A stretch of 64,000 nt of DNA from assembly GCF_004564075.1 (NCBI RefSeq), contig NZ_CP038256.1:2542001-2606000 (forward strand). The letters run 5' to 3'. Source of the DNA: Microbacterium sediminis (GTDB lineage Bacteria; Actinomycetota; Actinomycetes; Actinomycetales; Microbacteriaceae). Positions 24,361-60,376 of the stretch are shown here, piece by piece. The translations under genes were made by a program, and so were the position numbers. Within the stretch, counting starts at the first letter, position 1; every line of letters begins with the position of its first letter. A model generated the notes under the pieces. That model ran no database searches. It was not told the origin of the DNA and saw nothing but the letters and a program-made list of their open reading frames with translations.

Positions 24361-24504
24361 GGCTCGTCGACCGAAGCGCGAAGCGCGGAGCGGAGACGGG
24401 TCGAGCGCAGCCGCGCAGCGGCGGAGCCGAGACCAGGGCCCGCGATCTCGACTCCGCTGCGCTCCGCTCGATCCGTCTCCATTCGCTTCGCTCAGTCGAC
24501 GAGC
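24361..24504. repeat. Long intergenic palindrome, family 1 (copy at 24361)
   Basis: Left arm 24361-24433 and right arm 24444-24504 are imperfect reverse complements built of GGCTCGTCGA, GAGACGG, TCGAGCGCAGC and GCCGAGA blocks. It is a diverged copy of the hairpins at 58463, 58954 and 59155. It fills the first half of the 337-bp gap between the esterase and the PfkB gene. The rest of the gap (24505-24683) shows no gene or motif I recognise. Confidence 0.8.
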
Positions 24505-24683
24505 GGTGAGTGGTCAGGCTCGCCGGCCGGAAGCGCGCGCCGGCGGACAGCCCGCGCACAGCGCAGGAGATCCACGCCACGGCGGCGAGATCACCCGGAT
24601 CCCGCCCGCCCGTGCGCGAATCCCCTCCCCAGGGCGCAATCCATCCGCCCCACCGCGCCCGCACGGCGCAGAGCGCGCGGGCG

Positions 24684-57185: not shown

Positions 57186-57686
57186 ATGGAAGCCACCGAC
57201 GTGCTGATCCGCCCCATCCGAGACGTCGACGCCGAGGCGATGGGCCGTGTCCACGCCCAGGTGTGGCACGAGACCTACGACGGCATGGTGTCGCGCGCGG
57301 CCCTCGAAGCCGTCTCGCCCAGGCGACTGGCCGATCTGTGGACCCACTACGCGCAGCGGGGACCCGAGCACCGTCACGCGGCGGCCCTCGTGAACGGCGA
57401 GATCGTGGGCTTCGCCGCGTCGGGACCGGCCCGCGACGCCGACGCCCCCGCCGAGCGCGAGCTGTACTTCGTGTACCTGCTGGACTCGTGGCACCGCAAG
57501 GGCATCGGCCGACGGCTGTTCGACGCCGTGGTCGACGACGGCGAGCCGCTGTACGGCTGGATCGCCAAGGGCTACCCCGGCGGCACCGGCTTCTACGAGA
57601 AGCGCGGATTCGTGCTCGACGGCGCAGAGCGCGACGAGACGTTCCTGGGCGAGACGCTCACCGAGGTCCGCTTCTCCCGTGGCTGA
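57186..57686 (+). CDS. GNAT family N-acetyltransferase
   Basis: A 166-residue acyltransferase with the acetyl-CoA motif [20 protein letters not shown] and the following strand-helix [21 protein letters not shown]-terminal [26 protein letters not shown] is typical of the general GNAT (PF00583) group. The substrate is unknown. Its stop overlaps the cofE GTG start by 8 nt, so the two are co-translated; a link to F420 synthesis is possible but unproven. Leaderless start suggested by TAGTGT 6 nt upstream. Confidence 0.9.
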
Positions 57687-58446
57687 GGCCCTTCAGGTCT
57701 GGGCCCTCGAGGGGATCGGTGAGATCCGGTCGGGCGACGACCTCGTGGCGATCATCGCCGATGCCGCCGGCGACACCCTGCGCGACGGCGACGTCCTCGT
57801 GGTGACGAGCAAGATCGTCTCCAAGGCCGAGGGGCGCTTCGTCGAGGCCGACGACCGCGAGGACGCCATCACGGCCGAGACCGTGCGGGTCGTGGCGGAG
57901 CGGACGTGGCCGAACGGCTCGCGCACGCGCATCGTCGAGAGCCGCCTCGGGATCATCGCCGCCGCCGCCGGCGTGGACGCCTCCAACACCCCGGACGGCA
58001 CGGTGCTGCTGCTGCCGGTCGACCCCGACGCCTCGGCGCGGGCCCTGGCCACCGGCCTGCGGCAGCGCACGGGCGCCGAGGTGGGCGTGATCGTCTCGGA
58101 CACCCTGGGCCGGGCCTGGCGCGACGGCCAGACCGACTGCGCGATCGGCGCCGGCGGCGTGCACGTGTTCGAGGATCTGCGCGGTCAGGTCGACGCGCAG
58201 GGCCGACCGCTCGTGGTCACCCAGCCGTGCGTGGCCGACGAGCTGGCCGCGGCCGCCGATCTCGTCAAGCGCAAGACCACCGGACGCCCGGTCGCCGTGG
58301 TGCGCGGGCGGGCCGATCTGGTCGGTCCCCTGGACCTGCCCGGCGCGCGCTCGATCCTGCGCCCCGGCGAGCGCGACATGTTCCACACGGGCGCCGAGGA
58401 GTCCTACGCGGCCGGCTACGCCGCCGGCCGCGCCTCCCGCCCCTGA
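57679..58446 (+). CDS. cofE: Coenzyme F420-0:L-glutamate ligase
   Basis: A 255-residue GTP-dependent ligase adding L-glutamate residues to F420-0, the tail-building step of coenzyme F420. Features: [50 protein letters not shown] and [18 protein letters not shown]. It is a stand-alone CofE, without the C-terminal nitroreductase-like domain of mycobacterial FbiB. Its GTG start lies within the GNAT gene end. No other F420 gene is in the window, but the LLM enzyme at 17448 is a likely user. A long palindromic repeat begins 17 nt after its stop. Confidence 0.93.
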
Positions 58447-58462: not shown

Positions 58463-58611
58463 GATCTCGACTCCGCGGCTGCGCCGCTCCGCTCGATCCG
58501 TCTCCGCTCGCTTCGCTCGGTCGACGAGCCGTGACCCTTACGGCTCGTCGAGCAGAGTGAGCGCAGCGAACGACGCCGAGACGGATCGAGCGAGCGCAGC
58601 GAGCCGAGATC
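58463..58611. repeat. Long palindrome, family 1 (copy A), overlapping the GIY-YIG stop codon
   Basis: Left arm 58463-58530 and right arm 58542-58611 are imperfect complements around about 11 nt. The 70-nt right arm (starts GGCTCGTCGAGCAGAGTGAG) is identical to 59063-59132. Its last two bases are the first two of the GIY-YIG stop triplet (58610-58612). Confidence 0.92.
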
Positions 58612-58897
58612 AGCGCGCCTGCCGCCGTGCCCGGCTCAGCGCGCGCACGGCCTCGAACCCGCCCTCGATGAACGCCTGCCGCTTCGCGTGGCTCCAGGTC
58701 TGGATCCGCTTCTCGAGGTCGTAGGCGTCCTCGATCCGGTCGAACTCACCGCACCACGCGAGCTGCACCGGCAGCCGACGCTTCGTGTAGTCGGCACCCT
58801 CGCCGTTCTGGTGCTGCCAAAGGCGCGCCTCGAGGTTGATCGTGCTGCCGACGTAGAAGGTTCCATCGACGCAGCGAAGAATGTAGGTGTGCGGCAT
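58610..58897 (-). CDS. Small GIY-YIG nuclease family protein
   Basis: A 95-residue protein of the UPF0213/YhbQ-like GIY-YIG group. The GIY and YIG strands appear as TYILRCVDG and FYVGSTINL, followed by Arg in LEARLWQHQNGEG, YTKRRLPVQLAW and the conserved Glu in AYDLEKRIQTW. So the catalytic set (Tyr, Tyr, Arg, Glu) seems intact. Such stand-alone proteins are DNA-nicking enzymes or of unknown role. It is embedded in family 1 palindromes: copy A overlaps its stop and copies B and C begin 57 and 258 nt upstream of its start. TACCGT stands 6 nt before the ATG at 58897 (leaderless). Confidence 0.88.
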   Translation of the reverse strand: MPHTYILRCVDGTFYVGSTINLEARLWQHQNGEGADYTKRRLPVQLAWCGEFDRIEDAYDLEKRIQTWSHAKRQAFIEGGFEAVRALSRARRQAR

Positions 58898-58903
58898 GCG
58901 CCG

Positions 58904-58909
58904 ACGGTA
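58904..58909 (-). promoter_or_regulatory. -10 box of the leaderless GIY-YIG mRNA
   Basis: Reverse-strand TACCGT, 6 nt, then the ATG at 58897. Confidence 0.55.
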
Positions 58910-58953
58910 GAGGATCCACGGCGCGGGCGGCGCCTGTTCTCCACAGGCCCCGG

Positions 58954-59132
58954 GATCTCGACTGCGCGGCTGCGCCGCGGAGACCTGCACTGAGCAAGCG
59001 AAGCGCGTCGAAGTATCGATCCGTCTCCGCTCGCTTCTCGGTCGACGAGCCGGGCCCCCTACGGCTCGTCGAGCAGAGTGAGCGCAGCGAACGACGCCGA
59101 GACGGATCGAGCGAGCGCAGCGAGCCGAGATC
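58954..59132. repeat. Long palindrome, family 1 (copy B)
   Basis: Starts GATCTCGACTGCGCGG and ends with the 70-nt arm 59063-59132, identical to that of copy A. The left arm has a divergent insert (58983-59010). It lies in the 525-bp gene-free gap 58898-59422, which is nearly filled by copies B and C; I see no gene in that gap. Confidence 0.92.
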
Positions 59133-59154
59133 TCCACAGGACCACAGGCCCCGA

Positions 59155-59334
59155 GATCTCGACTGCGCGGCTTCGCCGCTTCGCTCGATCCGTCTCCGCT
59201 CCGCGCTTCGCGCTCCGGTCGACGAGCCGTGAAGCTACAGCCCGCCGAGCAGCAACACCCCACGAGCTCGTCGAGCAGAGTGAGCGCAGCGAACGACGCC
59301 GAGACGGATCGAGCGAGCGCAGCGAGCCGAGATC
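59155..59334. repeat. Long palindrome, family 1 (copy C)
   Basis: Left arm from 59155, right arm 59265-59334, the latter identical to copies A and B except one base. The loop region is longer (59230-59264). Copies B and C are in tandem, 22 nt apart. Confidence 0.92.
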
Positions 59335-59422: not shown

Positions 59423-60376
59423 ATGGGTGCGATCGAGAACGCCAAAGTCACCGTCGTCGGAGCCGGAGCGGTCGGCTCGAGCACCGCGTACGCCATGCTC
59501 ATCCGCAAGGCCGCGCGGCACGTGGTGCTGTACGACATCGCGCGGCCGAAGGTCGAGGCCGAGGTGCTCGACCTGGCCCACGGCACGAACTTCACGGGGT
59601 CGAGCACCATCACGGGCGGCGCCGACATCGCGGTGACCGCGGGGTCGCACGTCGTCGTGATCACGGCCGGCGCGAAGCAGGATCCGGGTCAGACCCGCAT
59701 GGATCTGGCCGCCACGAACGCGAAGATCATCGCGGGCATGATGCCGCAGCTGCTCGAGGTCTCGCCCGACGCGATCTTCGTGATCGTCACCAACCCGTGC
59801 GACGTCCTCGCGGTGGTCGCGCAGCAGGTGACGGGGCTGCCCGCCGAACGCGTGCTCGCCTCGGGCACGGTGCTCGACACCTCGCGACTGCGCGTGCGCC
59901 TGGCCGAGGAGGCCAAGGTCGCCACCCGATCCGTGCACGCGCACATCGTCGGGGAGCACGGCGACACGGAGTTCCCGCTGTGGTCGAGCGCCACGATCGG
60001 TCCCGTGCCGCTGCTGGACTGGCGCGCGAAGGATTTCGAGGGCTTCCGCCAGGAGCAGCTCGACGCGATCGCCGTGGAGGTGCGCGATGCCGCGTACAAG
60101 GTGATCCAGGGCAAGGGCGCCACGAACTACGGCATCGGACTGTCGGTCACGCGCATCGTCGAGGCCATCCTCAACGACGAGCACGCGGTGCTGCCGGTCT
60201 CGACGGTGCTGAGCGAGTTCCACGGGATCGACGGGGTCGCCCTCTCGGTGCCGTCGATCGTGAACGCCACGGGCGCGTACCCGATCCGGGAGACCCACTT
60301 CGACGAGCGCGAGCTCGAGCTGCTGCGCACCTCCGCCGGGGCGATCTCGCTCACGGCGCAGAGCGTGATGCGCTGA
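59423..60376 (+). CDS. ldh: L-lactate dehydrogenase
   Basis: A 317-residue NAD-dependent enzyme reducing pyruvate to L-lactate. Features in order: Rossmann GAGAVGSSTAYAML, ITAGAKQDPGQTRMDL with the substrate loop Gln/Arg, IVTNPCDVLA, GSGTVLDT-like ASGTVLDTSRLR, and the active-site His in VGEHGDTEFPLW. The Gln (not Arg) in AGAKQ separates it from malate dehydrogenase. The start ATG 59423 is preceded by a -10-like CATAGT rather than a Shine-Dalgarno. It stands alone; palindromic repeats lie upstream. Confidence 0.95.
   Translation: MGAIENAKVTVVGAGAVGSSTAYAMLIRKAARHVVLYDIARPKVEAEVLDLAHGTNFTGSSTITGGADIAVTAGSHVVVITAGAKQDPGQTRMDLAATNAKIIAGMMPQLLEVSPDAIFVIVTNPCDVLAVVAQQVTGLPAERVLASGTVLDTSRLRVRLAEEAKVATRSVHAHIVGEHGDTEFPLWSSATIGPVPLLDWRAKDFEGFRQEQLDAIAVEVRDAAYKVIQGKGATNYGIGLSVTRIVEAILNDEHAVLPVSTVLSEFHGIDGVALSVPSIVNATGAYPIRETHFDERELELLRTSAGAISLTAQSVMR

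Follow-up and report, generated by a model that had tools for sequence, protein, structure and literature searches.

To our knowledge, the maker or keeper of whole classes of the short palindromes that fill many bacterial genomes is not known, and the locus described here raises the question of whether a small nuclease gene and the long hairpin repeats around it form one system. The window, i.e. the complete stretch of 64,000 nucleotides that was analysed (C1:2542001-2606000), is part of a genome of 2.92 Mb. A preliminary description of the sequence had reported three hairpins around a 95-codon GIY-YIG gene, with copy A lying over its stop codon, and the arrangement was found as reported. The features referred to below are as follows, numbered from the first nucleotide of the window.

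57679-58446: cofE (F420 ligase), neighbour of the nuclease gene
58463-58611: hairpin copy A, 3' of the nuclease gene, overlapping its stop codon by 2 nt
58463-58498, plus strand: unit GATC-TCG…CTC-GATC, left arm of copy A
58546-58583, minus strand: unit CGTC-TCG…CTC-GACG, right arm of copy A
58584-58611, minus strand: unit GATC-TCG…CTC-GATC, end of the right arm of copy A
58610-58897, minus strand: standalone GIY-YIG nuclease gene, 95 aa, ATG at 58897, TGA at 58610-58612, PF01541 match
58954-59132: hairpin copy B, 5' of the nuclease gene, with units at 59067-59104 and 59105-59132, both on the minus strand
59155-59334: hairpin copy C, 5' of the nuclease gene, with units at 59155-59190 (plus strand) and at 59269-59306 and 59307-59334 (minus strand)
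59423-60376: lactate/malate dehydrogenase (ldh), neighbour of the nuclease gene on the other side from cofE
24361-24505: diverged, solitary copy of the genome-wide repeat, core motif at C1:2566392-2566406

The predicted protein matched PF01541 in a Pfam profile search (E 6e-16, 59 bits, cut-off 22.6). Residues Y4, Y14, G16, R25, H29, E64, W70 and K74 were invariant in an alignment of 20 sequences (numbering of the first sequence), and by the tyrosines of GIY…YIG together with the arginine and the glutamate the protein is a member of the GIY-YIG superfamily PF01541, the subject of a 2006 survey (PMC1564403). PF01541 was the sole Pfam match, with no tyrosine (HUH, Y1) transposase found in the protein; the NCBIfam search gave only a sub-threshold match to a group I intron endonuclease and the PADLOC search gave no match. 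Two PF01541 matches above the cut-off are present in the genome, the window gene and one at C1:1273760, which is taken to be uvrC. Additionally, a fragment of a related GIY-YIG gene, with 49 % identity over residues 46-94, was seen at C1:2021608-2021754 (L112). It looks like the relic of a second GIY-YIG gene, and no class-specific repeat was found within 700 bp of it.

The stop codon is overlapped by the terminal GATC of copy A (58608-58611). The near-identical right arms of about 70 nt that had been described are present, the last 69 nt being the same in copies A, B and C and 73 nt in A and B, and they belong to a direct-repeat family of three stretches of about 96 nt at 58516, 59037 and 59239 (identity with the first: 97 % for the second, 80 % for the third). 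The fourth, diverged copy was also confirmed as standing alone at 24361. When folded as single-stranded DNA the whole of copy A gave -62.6 kcal/mol (z -6.57, with none of 200 shuffles reaching this value), making it the only one of four stretches to stand out; the isolated left unit, the isolated right arm and an array of class D units (see below) folded no better than their shuffles, so the evidence for the 4-bp unit described below comes from covariation, not from folding energy. A search of Rfam returned three microRNA-family names at 30-32 bits, compared with gathering scores of 140-268, which were taken as chance matches to long hairpins.

The repeat is not limited to the window. Its core, GGAGACGGNTCGAGC, had 192 matches in the genome with at most one mismatch (97+95), compared with 4 (2+2) for the reversed-pattern control. 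The genome-wide count of arms that the preliminary description had proposed gave 18 matches for a 27-nt piece of the right arm (at most three mismatches) and none for the control, but exact arms also occurred away from the nuclease gene. Four near-identical arms form a second cluster at C1:2466538-2467659 (L003:4500-5800), about 133 kb from the window nuclease, and no GIY-YIG gene was found there, so the repeat is more than a component of the nuclease locus. The gene amid this second cluster is, by eye, GNAT acetyltransferase-like. The pattern GACGGN…TCGAGANC matched 119 sites in the genome; among the 100 listed, the two free positions could pair in 99 (48 C-G, 43 G-C and 8 A-T), compared with a mean of 43 and a maximum of 60 in shuffles, and 48 of 49 distinct sequences paired. 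The unit of this genome thus has a variable interior and a stem that compensates.

A relative of the window protein was present in 62 of 149 Microbacterium genomes, as obtained with two different queries. For the genus set, 73 loci were read with flanks of up to 10 kb on either side of the gene, and a 16-mer was counted as repeated when it recurred at least three times in the locus. Coverage by repeated 16-mers was 27.1 % in the nearest 250 bp and dropped with distance from the gene to 14.0 % (250-500 bp), 5.5 % (500-1000 bp), 1.2 % (1-2 kb) and 0.4-0.7 % in each bin beyond 2 kb. Such 16-mers occurred within 1 kb on both sides in 60 of the 73 loci and on at least one side in 65. Repeats lying equally near all genes, which had been named beforehand as evidence against a link, were thus not seen (27 % near, about 0.5 % far), and the short distances between the genes and the repeats downstream of them in the genus loci agree with the statement in the preliminary description that genes of this type often have their ends within such repeats. 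A strict search for perfect-stem hairpins near the nuclease genes missed most units because the interiors of class A units are not perfect stems, and units were found instead by repeated-word coverage together with a scan of triplet pairs.

A 4-bp stem around TCG…CTC was first suggested by reading the genus loci and then scanned for. When every one of the 4096 triplet pairs was scored inside a 4-bp stem, TCG/CTC and its reverse complement came out on top, with 459 units near the nuclease genes compared with 67 expected from the far flanks. At least one unit occurred within 500 bp in 70/73 loci, although the loose motif is common by chance in this GC-rich genus and was found at 48 % of mock positions more than 2 kb away; the mean number of units per locus was 6.1, compared with 0.78 at mock positions, so the excess in the genus is one of unit number more than of presence. 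At the uvrC-like locus of the same genome (L002), used as a control, five matches to the loose motif were scattered over 3.2 kb and by eye none resembled the repeat of the genome. Pairing at stem positions 1-4 ranged from 0.59 to 0.94. For these positions it was higher than in any of 500 shuffles in 10 of 16 class-by-position cells, and the remaining cells were near-invariant or within the shuffles; at positions 5-6 this was so in none of 8 cells. The element recognised is probably the shorter unit, a 4-bp stem enclosing TCG…CTC that is present twice in each right arm, rather than the 70-nt arm. Units 5' of the gene were mostly on the opposite strand (154 of 201, with 47 on the same strand) and those 3' of it mostly on the same strand (127 of 194, with 67 opposite), so that the inverted arrangement of units around the gene is a clear tendency and not a fixed rule.

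The units differ in stem and interior between loci, and five classes were distinguished:

class A: CGTT-TCGTCTC…GCTC-AACG
class B: CCCT-TCGTCTC…GCTC-AGGG
class C: GATC, GGTC or GGTT-TCGATAC…ACTC-
class D: CCCT or CGCT-TCGACARGCTC-AGGG or AGCG
the window's own class: GATC-TCGRCTC…GCTC-GATC

By pattern, exactly one class was present in 70 of the 73 genus loci, with classes A-D having been defined after inspection of the very loci on which they were tested; L098 was assigned to D by eye, and L111 and L112 had no class. On a tree of 67 proteins, which was built from few columns and had 32 of its 64 inner branches open, the five repeat classes required 4 changes, the minimum possible, without exceptions, compared with a mean of 34 after shuffling. 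In the 11 genomes that hold two classed loci, the class always differed between the two; one gene of the 22, from G074, is degraded. The second locus of the window's own genome is the relic mentioned above and has no class.

The motif, fixed beforehand, was also searched in a second set of loci, obtained in a scan with 12 D-type proteins that returned the best 80 loci, of which 70 were tested. All but one of these (69/70) bore a label other than Microbacterium, the exception being Microbacterium sp. 70-16, and they ranged over Bacteroidota, Chloroflexota, cyanobacteria, Ignavibacteria, Neomarinimicrobiota, Spirochaetes, Fibrobacter, Gammaproteobacteria and other actinobacteria. TCG…CTC occurred within 500 bp of the gene in 70/70 loci, compared with 16 % of mock positions, with 380 matches against 20.1 expected and TCG/CTC again ranking first of all triplet pairs. 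The mean number of units per locus was 5.3, compared with 0.26 at mock positions, and the exact D loop was present near the gene in 27 of the 70 loci (1.06 per kb near, 0.019 per kb far).

A different hairpin was found around relatives encoded on plasmids and chromids (52 records, loci of 14 analysed). Hairpins tagged CGTC flanked the gene in five of the 14, in Novosphingobium, Sphingobium (where the downstream copy was tagged TGTC), Shinella, Rhizobium CIAT894 and N. gonorrhoeae, and similar hairpins tagged CTC did so in two more, Sinorhizobium and Rhizobium K1/93, although for the latter the copies seen were all downstream. Four of the remaining loci had TCG/CTC units and three had neither type. 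Over the 14 loci, 35 hairpin matches lay within 500 bp of the gene and one beyond 1 kb, with some hairpins counted on both strands. The hairpins around the N. gonorrhoeae relative are presumably dRS3. The N. gonorrhoeae record (NZ_CP119140.1, L228) is described as a plasmid yet is chromosome-sized at 2.17 Mb. On a tree of 94 rows the seven proteins flanked by CGTC/CTC hairpins formed one side of a branch (support 89, not starred; few columns), and the rows labelled TCG/CTC, including the window protein, lay outside this seven-row clade that holds the Neisseria row; some of the TCG/CTC labels could be due to chance, since the motif occurs at 16 % of mock positions. According to Di Nocera (2013; PMC3733652), CGTC REPs occur in five phyla, CGTC-1 in Neisseria corresponds to dRS3, and CGTC REPs are apparently without a dedicated transposase. 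The GIY-YIG proteins may be considered candidates for this missing enzyme role.

Copy number in the genome followed the presence of the enzyme, although not strictly. Where a D-type gene was present, in 18 genomes, the class D pattern TTCGACARGCTCAG was found 12-565 times (median 101); the median was one in the 131 genomes without such a gene, of which 26 nevertheless held at least 12 copies (AUC 0.96, p 4e-11, shared ancestry ignored). The preliminary description had regarded repeats in genomes lacking the enzyme as evidence against the link; the medians spoke for a link, but these 26 genomes did not fit a strict one. Genomes G070, G058, G064 and G130, among others, had 69-161 class D copies and no D-type nuclease, and may either have lost the enzyme or have obtained the repeat from another source. 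For class A the median was 50.5 copies in 30 genomes with the gene and 0 in 119 without (AUC 0.93, shared ancestry ignored), with at least 10 copies in 21 of the 119. With a strict pattern, class C reached two or more copies in 10 of the 13 genomes that have a C-type gene and in 1 of the 132 that lack it, and two genomes with a C-type gene had no match to this pattern. The many repeats in some genomes without the enzyme of their class indicate that repeats persist in its absence.

Joint presence of gene and hairpins could be followed at one site, between rsmG and parA, for which the best 30 of 141 rsmG loci were read over 1.5 kb. All six loci with a C-type gene at this site (one of them broken) had C-class hairpins, whereas they were absent from all 22 loci in which no gene lay in reach (1.5 kb), two of these matching half of the C motif. 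Of the others, G109 had a gene remnant with a few degenerate units and G074 a broken gene out of reach. No comparable site was found for the window locus. The nuclease gene was present at none of 29 other cofE loci, two of which (L222 and L224) held units of other classes, and these provide no clean empty site because ldh does not lie beside cofE in them; synteny around cofE was not conserved and no unoccupied allele was found. Neither a new repeat copy nor movement of the gene was caught in the genomes compared.

The gene and its hairpins thus probably form one system, in which the target of a standalone GIY-YIG nuclease would be the hairpin repeat, as folded single-stranded DNA or as a cruciform, with the 4-bp stem around TCG…CTC. 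The support computed for this consists of the tight and mostly two-sided association, the match between protein subclade and repeat class, the compensating stem, the mostly inverted layout, the joint presence and the correlation with copy number. The short covarying stem speaks for a target that is recognised in folded single-stranded or cruciform form, the match of classes for specificity, and the mostly inverted flanks together with joint presence for a cassette. The protein would bind and cut the hairpin when it is exposed as a single strand, and breaks at dispersed copies would be repaired from other copies. Over time such repair could copy, tandem-amplify and relocate the repeats, and occasionally the gene cassette as well, in a process that would be homing-like and not transposition by strand transfer.

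Some of the same observations would also be expected if the gene merely tended to land in repeat-rich intergenic DNA, as the second cluster of arms without a nuclease in the window's own genome might suggest, but class matching on the protein tree, the different classes in 11 of 11 genomes with two classed loci and the 70 of 70 loci of the second set (16 % of mock positions) make such an origin extremely improbable. An effect at the level of RNA, with the hairpins serving as transcribed terminators or mRNA stabilisers and the enzyme processing them or its own message, would agree with the overlap of copy A with the stop codon and with the position of all three copies between cofE and ldh. Stem covariation fits DNA or RNA equally, but the units lie on both strands and on both sides of the gene, and GIY-YIG enzymes are known as DNA nucleases, so that this explanation appears unlikely. 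The high copy number, the mostly inverted flanks, the usual presence of a single gene and the tandem runs are what would be expected of true RAYT-like transposition, in which the protein would excise hairpin units and reinsert them in trans. Such a run, made up of 11 class D units spaced 24 bp apart, lies directly upstream of the nuclease gene of G148 (C1:560237-560490); class D is often tandem, and runs of 3-6 units occur elsewhere in that genome. The protein matches GIY-YIG only, with no tyrosine transposase, and no clean empty site was found; transposition of this kind appears very unlikely. GIY-YIG enzymes hydrolyse DNA, whereas tyrosine transposases join ends, so joining of ends is not expected here and the term RAYT-like fits the layout better than the reaction. 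Of the REP/RAYT-like system that had been proposed, the pairing of an enzyme with a repeat stood, its subtypes matching across many genomes, but the tyrosine transposase was missing.

The repeats might also be no more than cutting marks in incoming or replicating single-stranded DNA, by which the enzyme would tune uptake or recombination, with their spread brought about by other means. The site-specific single-stranded nuclease Ssn of N. meningitidis, also a GIY-YIG protein, reportedly cuts single-stranded DNA at dRS3-like repeats and modulates transformation; the Neisseria relative sits among dRS3-like hairpins, and the persistence of repeats in genomes without the enzyme would be in agreement with such a role. 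On its own, however, it accounts neither for the nesting of the gene between mostly inverted copies nor for the way in which gene and hairpins accompany each other at the rsmG-parA site, and as a full account we consider it possible but rather doubtful. For the preferred reading, a nuclease and its hairpin target forming one system, the strand of the repeats in G148 gave no sign of a lagging-strand preference, since no bias by half-chromosome was found in this one genome (13/16 and 11/14 strand-collapsed clusters, p = 1, origin assumed at the contig start).

If the reports on Ssn are correct, the window system would be of the same kind, with another hairpin grammar and in another clade on the present tree. 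Both would consist of a small standalone GIY-YIG protein and a multicopy partner repeat, and the gonococcal relative is flanked by dRS3-like hairpins as the Microbacterium protein is by its own. They differ in that the Microbacterium protein lies outside the clade of the Neisseria protein (the branch with support 89, not starred) and in that its hairpin has TCG…CTC in a variable 4-bp stem, whereas the Neisseria hairpin has a CGTC tag, an 8-bp stem and a 4-nt loop. The catalytic domain, and the position of the gene within copies of its presumed target, are shared with GIY-YIG homing endonucleases such as I-TevI, but the window protein of 95 aa is little more than the domain and its presumed targets are multicopy hairpins. 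The gene of a homing endonuclease interrupts and thereby destroys its own target; here, intact units flank the gene. As in REP/RAYT systems, one gene is flanked by inverted copies of a dispersed palindrome, and the base of the hairpin carries a short fixed motif; here, with a GIY-YIG nuclease as the enzyme, the reaction must be a different one, and the fixed motif is TCG/CTC, not the GTAG given for RAYT-associated REPs in PMC3733652. The CGTC-tagged REPs are likewise hairpins with a fixed tag flanking GIY-YIG genes at the plasmid and chromid loci, but their organisation, given in the same source as the CGTC tag, a stem, a loop of 4-5 nt and a tail such as CCA, is unlike the N4-TCG…CTC-N4' of the window units with their variable interior. 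In the open-licence literature, no title or abstract opening among the matches listed describes a pairing of GIY-YIG proteins with hairpin repeats.

Taken more widely, it is conceivable, and we propose it tentatively, that a second pan-bacterial world of REPs exists in parallel to RAYT and GTAG and independent of them, with GIY-YIG nucleases as its dedicated enzymes. Each subclade would read its own hairpin (TCG…CTC in many phyla; CGTC in Proteobacteria, including Neisseria dRS3), and cutting would drive copying, tandem growth and relocation of the cassette. If this is true, the enzyme reported as missing for CGTC REPs would be among these nucleases. A rule linking nuclease subclade to hairpin class makes the question testable with a protein of 95 residues and a short oligonucleotide, and predicts targets for the numerous genes whose sole annotation is GIY-YIG nuclease family protein. 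Such nucleases could also serve as sequence- and shape-specific cutters of single-stranded DNA.

Relatives of the nuclease were also seen in 23 phage records. By rough clustering, the 73 genus loci occupied 40 syntenic positions, and in a cluster of 21 members A- and C-type cassettes of many species had the same neighbours. In those read from this cluster (L089, L051 and L082) the neighbours were rsmG and parA, beside several TGTTTCACGTGAAACA sites, which we take to be parS-like and near the origin. The orientation of the cassette relative to the same neighbours was reversed between species (L044 and L055; L056 compared with L066 and L069; L078), and the swapped neighbours are consistent with the cassette having flipped, as if between its inverted repeats.
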